Shown piece after piece: positions 30,764 to 35,673 of a DNA stretch of 38,963 nt. Position 1 is the stretch's first letter. Each line of letters opens with the position of its first letter. This stretch comes from Advenella sp. FME57 (GTDB lineage: Bacteria; Pseudomonadota; Gammaproteobacteria; Burkholderiales; Burkholderiaceae_B). The notes under the pieces were generated by a model. The model saw nothing but the letters and a program-made list of their open reading frames with translations. It did no database searches and was not told the DNA's origin. The stretch spans positions 1 through 38,963 of the forward strand of contig NZ_JABUXU010000026.1 of assembly GCF_014897675.1 (NCBI RefSeq), given 5' to 3'. Position numbers and translations under genes: made by a program.

Positions 30764-31627
30764 TCATACCTGAAAATCAAGGCCGATATCCAGCGCTTTG
30801 GTGCTGTGCGTCAGATATCCGATCGCGATATAGTCAACACCAGTTTGCGCCACGGCTTGCACCGTTTCTGGCGTAATGCCGCCGGACGCTTCCGTTTGCG
30901 CCTTGCCCTGGCACATTGCCACGGCCCGGCGCAAGGTATCGCAATCCATATTGTCCAGCAACACAAGCCTGACGCCTTCTTCCAGGGCAACCGCCAGCTG
31001 TTCCAGGGTATCGACCTCAAGCTCAACGGGCGTCAAGTGTCCTGCATGCGCATGGGCCTGGGCAATGGCTGTACGCAGATCACCGGCCAGCGCAATGTGG
31101 TTGTCTTTGATCAGCATGGCGTCATCCAGCGCCATCCGGTGATTCCAGCCGCCCCCGACGCGAACTGCGTATTTCTGCAGTACCCGCAAGCCCGGAATTG
31201 TCTTGCGGGTGCAGGTAATGCGTGCGTTCGTATCGGCTACCAGTTTGACAATATCTGCGGTCTGCGTGGCGATACCGCTCAGGTGCGTCAGGAAATTGAG
31301 CGCCGTACGCTCAGCGGCAAGCATGGACCGGATATCCCCTGAAACCGTCGCCAGTAACTGGCCTGCCTCAACATGCGCTCCATCCTGCCGGACAATATCT
31401 ACTTTGATGGCTGGATCAATTTGCGCAAAGGCCAGCCGGGCCAGCGCCATTCCGGCGATCACGCCCGGGCGGCGCGACACCAGATGCAGGCGCCCCTGCT
31501 TGCCAGCAGGGATGGTCGCCTGGGACGTAATATCGCCTTTTCGCCCCATATCTTCTGCCAGCGCTGCCTGCACAAATGGTAATAAAACAACGTCGGGTAA
31601 TTCGTGAGCAGCCGGATTCATAAGCAC
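30764..31627 (-). CDS. nadC: Quinolinate (nicotinate-nucleotide) phosphoribosyltransferase
   Basis: A cytoplasmic enzyme of 287 residues that joins quinolinate and PRPP to give nicotinate mononucleotide, CO2 and PPi, the third step of de novo NAD synthesis. Typical motifs are 'ALAEDMGRKGDITSQA', 'ERTALNFLTHLSGIAT', 'ARITCTRKTIPGLRVLQKYAVRVGGGWNHRMALDDAMLIKDNH' and 'VELEVDTLEQL...VLLDNM', 'EASGGITPETV'. GTG 31627 has AGGA at 5-8 nt; the in-frame ATG 31621 is an equally possible start. A 35-bp palindrome lies 31 bp upstream (31658-31692), so nadC has its own regulated promoter. Confidence 0.95.
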   Translation of the reverse strand: MLMNPAAHELPDVVLLPFVQAALAEDMGRKGDITSQATIPAGKQGRLHLVSRRPGVIAGMALARLAFAQIDPAIKVDIVRQDGAHVEAGQLLATVSGDIRSMLAAERTALNFLTHLSGIATQTADIVKLVADTNARITCTRKTIPGLRVLQKYAVRVGGGWNHRMALDDAMLIKDNHIALAGDLRTAIAQAHAHAGHLTPVELEVDTLEQLAVALEEGVRLVLLDNMDCDTLRRAVAMCQGKAQTEASGGITPETVQAVAQTGVDYIAIGYLTHSTKALDIGLDFQV

Positions 31628-31657
31628 GCAGGTCCTGTTAAAAAATCGCCCCCTAGG

Positions 31658-31692
31658 AGCTGTTATATACTCAATTTGAGTATATAACAGCT
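31658..31692. promoter_or_regulatory. 35-bp perfect palindrome, probable NadQ operator of nadC
   Basis: Two exact 17-bp arms around a central T (31675). The left arm is AGCTGTTATATACTCAA (31658-31674) and the right arm its complement (31676-31692). It lies between nadC and the end of the nadQ-like gene. Its core, TATACTCAATTTGAGTATA, is shared with the site before nadA (32768-32788), which makes it the prime binding site for the Nudix-type regulator encoded next door. TATAAC inside it may be part of the nadC promoter. Confidence 0.85.
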
Positions 31693-31723
31693 ATAAAAAA
31701 CCGACAATGGCTTATTGGAAAGT

Positions 31724-32665
31724 TTATTTATTGACAGGCAGTTTGCTGCCCGCGAGCAAGCTCTCGAGCAAAACCGTATCCTTGAACCGATACAGCTGTG
31801 CCGGGCGCCCCCGTTCCTGGACCGTGCTTTGTCCGGTCGCCTCGAGCAAGTCCTGGTGCTGCATCAGGCGGCGGAAATTCTGCTTGTGCAGCTCTACACC
31901 GGCCAGGCTTTCGATACTTTTCTGCAATTGCAGCAGCGTAAATTCAGCGGCCATCAATTCGGAAATGACCGGGCGGTATCTGATTTTCGCCCGCAACCTT
32001 GACATGGCCATGGCCAGCACCCGGCGATGGTTGTGCTGCATGGGCTTGCCCGTCATGGTTTCAGGGATTGCCCCATCAAACAGCGGTGATTCCGGAATGA
32101 GGCCCACTTCGTAGAGCAATTCATAGCGGTACAGGGTATTGTCCTCGATCCAGGCATGTTCTCCCTGACCCCAGCACAGATCCACGCGTCGCTGCCGGCT
32201 CTGGCGAATCGCGTCATCCTCTGCAAAGGCGACCCATTTTCTCAGATAAGGGTAAAACACGCGAGCGATCCATTCCGGCCTGCCCTCGCGATGGTCTTCC
32301 CAGGGAAAGTAACGATACCAGTCCTGCCAGCTGGCGTTGGCTTCCAATTGGCGCTCATCGGCTTCCTTGACCAGCCCCAGGTAACTGACATACAGCAGGG
32401 GCTGCCCTGAAGCGCGGGTACGTAGCGTGTCGACAAAGGTATAGAGCTGCTCGACGTAACCCATGGGTTGCATGGTCTGGTTTTTGACCCATTGGCGCAC
32501 ACCAGCCTGCAACGAGCTATGCACGGGCGATAGCGGCCCATAGGGCAGGATATTGCCGTTTTCCACGGTCAGCACCCTCGCGTTCAGATTGGTAATCGCG
32601 ATCAATACCGCGACAACCTCGGTAGCGCCTTCTGCAGTGCTCGACACGGAAAAACCTGAAGCCAT
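31724..32665 (-). CDS. nadQ: Nudix-related transcription regulator of NAD synthesis (NadQ/NrtR type)
   Basis: A regulator of 313 residues with a degenerate Nudix domain (about residues 15-170: 'VVAVLIAITNLNARVLTVENG', 'QPMGYVEQLYTFVDTLR', 'LLYVSYLGLVKEA') and a C-terminal winged-helix region (about 220-310: 'GKPMQHNHRRVLAMAMSRLRAKIRYRPVISELM', 'FTLLQLQKSIESLAGVELHKQNFRRLM', 'GRPAQLYRF'). The catalytic Nudix box is lost, as in sensor members. Members in alpha- and betaproteobacteria, including Bordetella, control nad genes. It is divergent from nadA-nadB and upstream of nadC, with a matching operator at each. The symbol is by analogy; the ligand (nicotinate, quinolinate or NAD precursor) is not known here. 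Confidence 0.86.
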   Translation of the reverse strand: MASGFSVSSTAEGATEVVAVLIAITNLNARVLTVENGNILPYGPLSPVHSSLQAGVRQWVKNQTMQPMGYVEQLYTFVDTLRTRASGQPLLYVSYLGLVKEADERQLEANASWQDWYRYFPWEDHREGRPEWIARVFYPYLRKWVAFAEDDAIRQSRQRRVDLCWGQGEHAWIEDNTLYRYELLYEVGLIPESPLFDGAIPETMTGKPMQHNHRRVLAMAMSRLRAKIRYRPVISELMAAEFTLLQLQKSIESLAGVELHKQNFRRLMQHQDLLEATGQSTVQERGRPAQLYRFKDTVLLESLLAGSKLPVNK

Positions 32666-32759
32666 ACCTGTACATATCCCTCAAAGATGTATGGATTCTA
32701 TCAGAACGGCCCTGATGGCATTTGCACCACAACGCTTACGCCTGGGAAATAAAAAGTGC

Positions 32760-32789
32760 TTTACGATTTATACTCAATTAGAGCATAAT
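32760..32789 (+). promoter_or_regulatory. nadA promoter containing a NadQ-type operator
   Basis: TTTACG (32760-32765) and CATAAT (32784-32789) with an 18-bp spacer form a plausible promoter. The spacer and -10 hold TTATACTCAATTAGAGCATAA (32768-32788, core of 20 plus 1), an imperfect palindrome with two mismatched pairs and the same TATACTCAATT core as the nadC palindrome. A repressor here would block RNA polymerase directly. Confidence 0.75.
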
Positions 32790-32821
32790 ATATTTTCGAA
32801 AATGGCACGGGATACAGGCAC

Positions 32822-33994
32822 ATGACATCGAACTCCAACTCTGTACGCAAGACGTTTGACATTGATTTTCCGACGCTGGACCGGCCGATATCTGACGCGG
32901 GCATGGGCTCGGCCTGTCAGGTAAAGCAGGCCTGGGCCAGCGTGCCCGAGCCGCTCGACAAAAAGGACCGGGACACCTATCGGCAGTTGATTGTTGATCT
33001 TCTGGCAAAACAGCAGGCAACCCTGGTTGCTCACTACTACGTTGATGGTGAACTACAGGACCTGGCGCTACAGACCGGCGGTTGCGTCGGGGACTCGCTG
33101 GAAATGGCCCGCTTCGGTCGGGATCATCCGGCCACTACATTGGTTGTGGCCGGCGTCAGATTCATGGGCGAGACCGCCAAGATCCTGAGCCCCGAAAAGC
33201 AGGTGTTAATGCCTGATCTGGATGCCAATTGCTCGCTGGATCTGGGCTGCCCGCCCGATGCTTTTGCGGCTTTCTGTGATGCCAACCCGGGACGGACGGT
33301 GGTGGTGTATGCCAATACCAGCGCGCAGGTCAAGGCCAGGGCCGATTGGGTTGTGACCTCTTCGATCGCCCTGGAAATCGTTACCTACCTGCACCAGAGG
33401 GGTGAAAAAATTCTGTGGGGTCCCGACCGCCATCTGGGTCAGTACATACAGCAGCAAACCGGCGCGGACATGCTGCTATGGCAGGGTTCTTGCCTGGTGC
33501 ACAATGAATTCAAGGCCGAAGAACTGGCTGACCTGAAAAAAGCCAATCCGCAAGCACGTGTGCTGGTGCACCCCGAATCGCCGACCTCGGTGGTCGCCCT
33601 GGCAGATGTGGTCGGGTCCACCAGCCGGCTGATCCAGGCCGTTACCGAATTGCCGGCGACAAGCTTTATCGTGGCAACCGACCAGGGCATCGTGCATGAA
33701 ATGCAAAAACAGGCGCCTGAGAAAACTTTCATTGCAGCCCCCACGGCAGGCGAGAGCGCCACCTGCAAGAGCTGTGCCTTTTGCCCGTGGATGGCAATGA
33801 ATGGGCTTGCCGGCGTGGCCAACTGCCTGCAAACGCATAGCGGACAAATCGTGCTAGATCCACAGTTGGGCTATCGGGCGCACAAACCCATCGGCCGCAT
33901 GCTCGATTTTGCTGCTGCCTACAAAAAGAACATCCGGGCCAGCGGCGACCTAAGCCGCGATGTTCATTTATTTTCCCAGATCGGACCTGCATGA
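32822..33994 (+). CDS. nadA: Quinolinate synthase
   Basis: A [4Fe-4S] enzyme of 390 residues that condenses iminoaspartate with dihydroxyacetone phosphate to quinolinate. Cluster cysteines are Cys137 (DANCSL), Cys224 (GSCLVHNEF) and Cys321 ([12 protein letters not shown]), each exactly 24 residues beyond E. coli Cys113, Cys200 and Cys297. Other motifs are '[29 protein letters not shown]', '[11 protein letters not shown]', '[10 protein letters not shown]' and 'HPESP'. The N-terminal extension relative to E. coli is about 24 residues, without clear function. The stop overlaps the nadB start (ATGATG). It is divergent from nadQ. Confidence 0.96.
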
Positions 33995-35673
33995 TGAATG
34001 CCACAGCGCACGACTATGATGTGTTGATTGTCGGTGGCGGTCTGGCCGGCCTGTCGGTTGCACTAACCCTGCCTTGTAATATGCGGATTGCCATTGTCAG
34101 CAAATTGTCGCTGGAGACCACCGCCAGCAGCAAGGCCCAGGGCGGGATAGCGGCGGTGCTGGACGCCGAAGATCATACCGACAACCACATTCGCGATACG
34201 CTGGTTGCCGGCGCCGGCCTGTGCGATATGACAAGTGTCAGCCACATTGTGCAAGCCGCGCCGGCGGCGATCGACTGGTTAAGACGCCATGGAGTCCAAT
34301 TTACCCTTGCTGGCCCGGATCAATTACATCTGACGCGCGAGGCCGGCCACAGTCATCGCCGTATCGTTCATGCAGCAGACAGCACTGGATCAGCGATCAC
34401 CTCGGTGTTGCAGACACAACTGCGACAGCGGCCCAACGTGGACGTGTTTGAGCACACCGTGTGCGTCGATGCATTAATTACGCATGAATTAAATACGCGT
34501 GAGTTACTCTCGTATGGGCATGCAAATCGAACTGCCTGCCAGGGAATTGATGCCGTGGATATGGCCTCGGGTAAAACGTTAACCCTGACCGCCCGCCACA
34601 CTGTCCTGGCCACGGGCGGACTGGGACAGCTGTTCCCCTATACCACCAACCCACCCACCGCCACCGGTGACGGCCAGGCCATCGCCTGGCGGGCGGGTTG
34701 CCGGATTGCCAATATGGAATTCATACAGTTTCACCCCACTGCCCTGGCATTGCCGAACGCTGCCTCCTTTTTGATCTCAGAAGCAGTCCGGGGCGAGGGC
34801 GGTGTGCTTGTGAACGCCGCCAAACGCCGTTTCATGCCTGATTATGATTCGCGCGCCGAACTGGCACCGCGCGATATTGTAGCGCGGGCCATCCACACTG
34901 AAATAACCAGGCAACAAGGGCAACCTGTATGGCTGGATATTTCCCACCGTCCGGCCGGCTTTATTCGCGAACACTTCCCCATGATTTACCAGACTTGCCT
35001 GGACGTGGGGCTGGACATCACCCGCCAAGCTATTCCGGTTGCGCCGGCAGCACATTACTCCTGCGGTGGCATTGTTACCGATTTGAGCGGACGCACCAAT
35101 GTTGACGGTCTGTATGCTGTAGGCGAAGTTGCCGATACCGGCCTGCACGGCGCCAATCGGCTGGCCAGCAATTCGCTGCTTGAATGCATTGTGATCGGGC
35201 GAAATTGCGCACGAGCCATTATTGAGCAATGCAGTCAAGTGGGCCGTACGCAACCTGCCGGCTCAACAGCGTCGCTTGCCGACAACGGTCAGCAAGCGGT
35301 CAATGACGACCCTGATGTGTCTGCATTGGCTGATGAGTCTGTGATACCTGATGCAGCCGTTATCCGGCAGCTCATGGGGAAAAACATGGGCATCATGCGA
35401 ACAGCGTCGGGCATTGGCCAGGCACTTGACCAGTTAGGACGGTGGCGCAGACTATTGGCACAAACACCGCAGGCCTGGACACCAACGCAACTGGATTTGC
35501 GCAATCGTCTGGACTGTGCCTGGCTGATCGCGGCATGTGCAGCCCAGCGCAAGGAAAGCCGGGGCCTTCATGCACTTGCCGATTTTCCCCGGATGCTGGC
35601 CGAACCCGACCCCAGTGTGATCGGTCGGCCAGTGCAGCCAATGCCGGTGCCTGCCGAAAGTGAGCCCGGCTAA
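33991..35673 (+). CDS. nadB: L-aspartate oxidase
   Basis: A flavoenzyme of 560 residues that oxidises L-aspartate to iminoaspartate, using oxygen or fumarate, and feeds NadA. The FAD dinucleotide motif is near the N-terminus ('[19 protein letters not shown]'). Succinate-dehydrogenase-type motifs follow: '[11 protein letters not shown]', '[22 protein letters not shown]', '[32 protein letters not shown]', '[10 protein letters not shown]', '[13 protein letters not shown]', '[47 protein letters not shown]'. ATG 33991 overlaps the nadA stop, so they are coupled. A low-complexity Ala/Asp insert (about residues 410-450) is unusual but in frame. Confidence 0.96.

Follow-up and report, generated by a model that had tools for sequence, protein, structure and literature searches.

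The window, by which we mean the whole stretch of 38,963 nucleotides of Advenella sp. FME57 DNA that was analyzed, contains a group of nad genes in the order nadC (minus strand), nadQ (minus strand) and then the divergent nadA and nadB (plus strand). The following features were located or predicted in this group:

30764..31621, minus strand: nadC, with the ATG start taken at 31621
31640..31660, minus strand: terminator-like element in the nadC leader, a stem of 5 bp (GCTCC-TAG-GGGGC) with a run of six T after it
31658..31692: predicted NadQ operator at nadC, a perfect 35-bp palindrome with its core at 31665-31685
31679..31707, minus strand: predicted nadC promoter, TTGTCG (31707-31702), 17 nt, TATACT (31684-31679), with the -10 box inside the operator
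31724..32665, minus strand: nadQ, 313 aa
32695..32700, minus strand: possible nadQ -10 box TAGAAT with TG before it, found by eye, 67 bp beyond the nadA operator
32760..32789, plus strand: predicted nadA promoter, TTTACG, 18 nt, CATAAT, with the -10 box formed by the right half of the operator
32768..32788: predicted NadQ operator at nadA, imperfect, 21 bp, with one consensus mismatch
32822..33994, plus strand: nadA
33991..35673, plus strand: nadB

The ATG at 31621 was taken as the nadC start because an in-frame upstream GTG (31627) is missing from Advenella sp. S44. NadC, NadA and NadB passed the NCBIfam cut-offs of TIGR00078, TIGR00550 and TIGR00551, respectively. A quinolinate salvage role had originally been proposed for NadC; with nadA and nadB intact, such a role need not be invoked.

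Residues 15-312 of the 313-residue regulator matched PDB 7q91 "NADQ transcription factor" with an E value of 1.9e-85. It had originally been described as a Nudix-type protein; Pfam recognized a C-terminal NrtR-type winged helix (PF21906, NrtR_WHD, 74.1 bits vs a cut-off of 27) and found no NUDIX domain at an E value of 0.001. The protein scored 55.9 bits against the NCBIfam NrtR equivalog, vs the 400 bits required. Going by the title of Minazzato 2022, NadQ is reportedly ATP-responsive and Nudix-like. We compared the locus with the best 80 of 104 confirmed loci (3 from Advenella and 77 from other genera); within this set, the nearest named relatives of NadQ were those of A. incenata (96%), Advenella sp. 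S44 (95%) and A. kashmirensis (86%). Elsewhere in the window, a manganese (yybP-ykoY) riboswitch was detected at 415-589 on the plus strand (Rfam, 92 bits).

The palindromes as candidate NadQ operators

Two matching palindromes that share a core and flank the regulator gene had been noted, and both were found on either side of the nadQ reading frame. The one before nadC has 17-nt arms around a single central nucleotide (centre 31675) and the one at nadA is shorter and imperfect; the common core, TATACTCAATT, lies on the plus strand at 31666-31676 and 32769-32779. In the sections of Leyn et al. 2016 (PMC5343134) that deal with the NadQ regulon (COG4111), the operator consensus is given as ttATRCTCannntGAGYATaa and the core targets as nadA, nadB and nadC. 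This consensus was fitted with two mismatches at the nadC site and one at the nadA site, all of which fell outside the ATRCTC/GAGYAT half-sites.

When up to three mismatches were allowed, TTATRCTCANNNTGAGYATAA occurred at exactly two places in the window, which were the two sites, whereas 100 dinucleotide shuffles of the window gave a mean of 0.02 matches and two matches in no case (0/100). The inner 33-bp form of the nadC palindrome was found once in the window and in no shuffle (again with up to three mismatches), and this was its single occurrence in the genome. A genome search for further copies of the 11-base core, as originally suggested, added only one to the two sites, a lone half-site at C51:31427, and no third paired site; the resulting three copies in 4.74 Mb are close to the estimated chance expectation (2 x 4.74e6 / 4^11 = 2.3). 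We consider that the significance lies in the pairing of half-sites and not in the 11-base core alone. A chance origin of the palindromes, or a dispersed repeat, would agree with the core by itself being no commoner than expected, but is refuted, as far as sequence allows, by the shuffle controls for TTATRCTCANNNTGAGYATAA and the 33-bp form and by the single genomic copy of the latter, and we regard it as extremely improbable.

The sites were also scored with a combined matrix built from 58 distinct sites in 70 loci of other genera, Advenella being left out. The two best places in the window were 32768 (nadA, 27.7) and 31665 (nadC, 24.6), and the next scored 9.6. Six places in the genome lay within three mismatches of the full consensus, vs three for a reversed control pattern, and 30 lay within one mismatch of the half-site pair, vs five for its control pattern. 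All non-nad candidates from these searches (28 from the half-site pair and four from the full consensus, with one place in both lists) were scored, and none exceeded 16.4, the weakest site within the matrix being 19.2. Candidates for a third site that were rejected include C41:18604 (16.4, one half-site broken), C36:184559 (15.6, inside an ftsK-like reading frame), C21:652085 (15.0, below 19.2) and an exact half-site pair at C4:170389 (6.9, within a reading frame). Since none of the other genomic candidates scored as high as the matrix's own sites, the regulon looks local; its size is that given by pattern-search candidates, and such searches could overlook a third site that is weak or diverged. 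The original prediction of a local NadQ regulon in which nadC and nadA have one site each agrees with these data. It is highly likely that both palindromes are operators of the NadQ encoded between them and define a local nadAB and nadC regulon, and they are very probably ordinary NadQ landing sites.

NadQ was present in all 10 Advenella genomes, as was the nadA-side site. One genome (G009, locus L106) had two NadQ-type sites, not one, in the nadA-nadQ intergenic region. The nadC gene adjoins nadQ in 6/10 genomes, all six of which have the nadC site. In the other four, nadC is located elsewhere, its product is only 57-59% identical and no site with up to five mismatches was found upstream, which is evidence against a universal NadQ control of nadC in the genus.

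Predicted promoters and the nadC leader

Candidate promoters, which rest on weak consensus matches, were predicted at both operators. A promoter scan of 31500-33000 gave three hits (one an overlapping alternative at nadA) vs a shuffle mean of 1.2, a count that is weak when taken alone. Both nadC hexamers were seen by eye in all six Advenella with adjoining nadQ and nadC, the spacer being 16 in one of them, and the nadA promoter layout, also judged by eye, was the same in 10/10 Advenella. Across the genus, the nadA -35 box reads TTTAC or TTTG plus variable bases, and the -10 box is TATAAA in one genome. The possible nadQ -10 region, TGATAGAATCCATACAT, is kept in 6/6 Advenella of this clade; nadQ is probably started from this promoter of its own and may itself not be repressed.

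The sequence gives the sites, their conservation and the family of the regulator, from which we infer binding, promoters, repression and signal. At nadC, the -10 box would be one half-site of the operator, and RNA would start at approximately 31672, just past the dyad centre. At nadA, the operator would fill the promoter spacer and its right half would serve as the -10 box. A bound NadQ dimer could thus obstruct RNA polymerase at both nadC and nadAB, and would do so when NAD, or its signal (reportedly ATP, per the title of Minazzato 2022), is sufficient.

This promoter arrangement argues against an RNA hairpin in the nadC leader, which had been part of the original prediction. With the -10 box in the first half of the palindrome, the promoter's own transcript would hold one arm only, and, because the predicted nadC RNA starts near the palindrome centre, a palindrome hairpin would be possible only in RNA reading through from nadQ. 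The 62-nt leader folded no better than its shuffles (z 0.5), so the small stem within it was rejected as a leader structure, and no Rfam family was matched at the gathering threshold at nadC in the window or in L008, L030 and L054. A scan for terminator-like elements found two, vs a shuffle mean of 1.4, and near the nadC palindrome reported only the small stem (31660-31648). This stem is kept in 5/5 close Advenella with a compensating C-G/T.G/T-A change and is missing from the predicted fold of the 62-nt leader; the T-run after it is lost in one close Advenella and weakened in another. A Shine-Dalgarno-like AGGA precedes the nadC gene of the window.

The perfect symmetry of the nadC site had also been taken to predict tighter control of nadC than of nadAB. 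No such prediction can be upheld, as the ranking of the two sites changes with the matrix used: an O1-type matrix gave 25.2 for nadA and 16.8 for nadC, and with an O2-type matrix nadC led by one bit (29.4 vs 28.4). A perfectly symmetric site need not be the one that fits best, because the consensus itself allows R/Y and because the right half of the nadA site doubles as the -10 box CATAAT.

Paired sites in relatives and the long arms at nadC

The core had been expected before nad genes in relatives, and two NadQ sites were indeed found no more than 150 bp downstream of nadQ in 70 of the 77 loci of other genera (e.g., L008:5904-5992), loci that are not independent, as three alphaproteobacterial and many Achromobacter loci are among them. 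Seven loci were left out: L042 and L049 had one good site before nadC, and L035, L045, L059, L065 and L082 had neither such a site nor nadC in the locus. In 68/70 loci, position 13 of the first site was preceded, at a distance of 16-18 nt, by a TTGACA-like hexamer (at least 5/6 matches), and position 13 reads TAGCAT in 66/70. An in-frame nadC start was found near the second site in 65 loci, and in 61 the ATG was exactly one base past the site centre, these nadC starts being predicted ones with later in-frame candidates in several loci. None of the 61 ATG loci had AGGA, GGAG, GAGG or AAGG upstream. In 59/70 loci, vs 3.9% of shuffled spacers, the 18 nt immediately preceding the second site contained a run of at least five T, and the mean fold z of the spacers was -1.8 over 69 loci, a value inflated by related species. 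A conserved terminator between the two operators was considered and rejected: a stem before the T-run occurred in 47/69 distinct spacers and also in 711/1300 shuffles that kept the T-run, and it is not claimed here because it is not clearly above chance.

Two further arrangements were observed. In L144 and L145 (genus g23), two NadQ-type sites 25 bp apart lie downstream of nadQ and before a short-leader gene, with TTGACT 17 nt before the TATGCT of the first site. In two Advenella loci in which nadC is located elsewhere (L113 and L116), nadC begins AAAATGAGTATT, which resembles one half of the second operator, and the other half is missing.

One possible interpretation of the paired sites is that, in these families, nadC is controlled by NadQ through a compact device of two layers, of which Advenella has a derived form. 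In the first layer, the first operator would hold the -10 box of a TTGACA promoter, as seen in most relatives. In the second, an operator would lie on a start codon that has no Shine-Dalgarno sequence, after the conserved T-tract and often with a stem before it, and NadQ bound at the translation start could stall polymerase at the T-tract. In Advenella, the start codon would have moved off, a Shine-Dalgarno sequence would have been gained, the operator would have become fully symmetric and been enlarged to a palindrome, and read-through RNA would form a hairpin; release of the nadC site from the start codon may explain its full symmetry. We consider this two-layer scheme unlikely. RegPrecise site lists may already show double sites before nadC.

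The nadC palindrome had been described as longer than an operator needs, and it does exceed the general operator. Arm symmetry at Advenella nadC was 0.80-1.00 out to distance 16 (five distinct sequences), whereas, farther than 10 bases from the centre, the sites of other genera and the nadA sites (64 O1, 68 O2 and 11 nadA distinct sites) were symmetric in 0-0.55 of distinct sequences at any given distance. The inner 33-bp form was present in 5/6 Advenella with nadQ-nadC; perfect 17-nt arms occur in this genome only among the six, and the other four arm carriers have arms of 15-16 nt. In a genome draw, the 33-bp form was found in 3/7 Advenella and 0/144 genomes of other genera (G004 and G008 also carry it and lay outside that draw). 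In A. kashmirensis, the core is retained and the arms are broken with no compensating pair. Among five close Advenella, none of 12 arm columns varied, vs 22/71 gap-free flank columns (Fisher p 0.03) or 43/92 when gap columns were counted (p 0.001), both tests treating related sequences, which are not independent. We regard the extra 6-7 bp per arm as a real local feature of one Advenella clade, which may function as an RNA element, provide a contact surface or reflect an accident of descent.

A recent accident, such as a near-palindrome perfected by template switching in replication and then kept by descent, appears plausible, if somewhat short of probable. It is consistent with the limitation of the arms to one clade, with the 17-nt perfection in this genome alone among six and with the lack of the 33-bp form in 144/144 genomes of other genera. 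On the other hand, the arms are invariant among the five species, and another symmetric extension, of different sequence, is present in G091, a genome of another genus.

The long palindrome could tentatively be viewed as an RNA element as well, which would form a 16-bp hairpin in nadQ read-through transcripts and protect or end the nadQ message, or hide it from nadC. A 41-nt fold had an energy of -21.8 kcal/mol (z -8.4), with none as good in 200 shuffles, and the invariant arm columns are in line with this function. In G091, the same core follows nadQ with different symmetric arms (CACTTTA/TAAAGTG) and then TTTTTTG, has the classic shape of a terminator and precedes a convergent non-nadC gene; however, this form was seen in only one of eight NadQ loci (seven genomes) of its genus. 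Several observations within Advenella also disagree with an RNA element. The T-run at 31640-31645 stands 12 nt past the palindrome, and a test for an intrinsic terminator found no T-run directly after the stem. The broken arms of A. kashmirensis are uncompensated, no arm pair covaries within the genus, and the right arm compared with the right flank alone gave 0/6 vs 12/37 (p 0.16, not significant). As a separate observation, the G091 palindrome (L140:1496-1530) resembles a terminator that incorporates an operator.

It is unlikely that the extra arms provide NadQ, or another protein, with additional DNA contacts or that they accommodate more than one dimer, the latter having been part of the original prediction. 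In 5/6 Advenella, the symmetry of the arms around the operator centre reaches 16 bases, which would be in keeping with such contacts, but the added sequences (AGCTGTT/AACAGCT) contain no further ATRCTCA half-site, and with only two half-sites at nadC a second dimer is not expected. Moreover, symmetry beyond 10 bases is not a property of the sites elsewhere, and relatives that seem to use more than one dimer have separate sites.

Comparison with known systems

The locus is a NadQ regulon of a known kind in which one operator is odd. Through our analysis, Advenella is added to the bacteria in which this NAD regulon has been described, and overlaps of operator and promoter are explicitly predicted. 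The analysis also corrects the view that an operator must be stronger if its palindrome is longer. For many relatives, a repressor site on a start codon that lacks a Shine-Dalgarno sequence and lies behind a T-tract offers a testable layout for how nadC may be silenced.

NrtR, the Nudix-related NAD regulator, has in common with the NadQ of this locus the C-terminal winged-helix domain and differs in its N-terminal part and its operator. The NadQ regulon as outlined in PMC5343134 is similar to the present one in the NrtR-type winged helix, the consensus and the linkage to nadABC; the two differ in operator symmetry, which reaches approximately 10 bases from the centre in that regulon and 17 bases at the nadC operator of this locus. 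PMC5343134, PMC11452294 and PMC12421817 describe the NadQ family with its consensus and its nadABC core, and for Bordetella and Achromobacter they connect it with nadC and with proteins that bind quinolinate. As in the nadQ-nadC-bug69 arrangement of these organisms, going by the account in PMC11452294, nadC comes directly after nadQ, and the DNA that separates the two genes contains NadQ sites. According to the same account, however, Bordetella and Achromobacter lack nadA and nadB and use nadC for salvage, whereas nadAB is next door here, and they have two operators, of which the second coincides with the start codon of nadC, whereas the locus described here has a single nadC operator.
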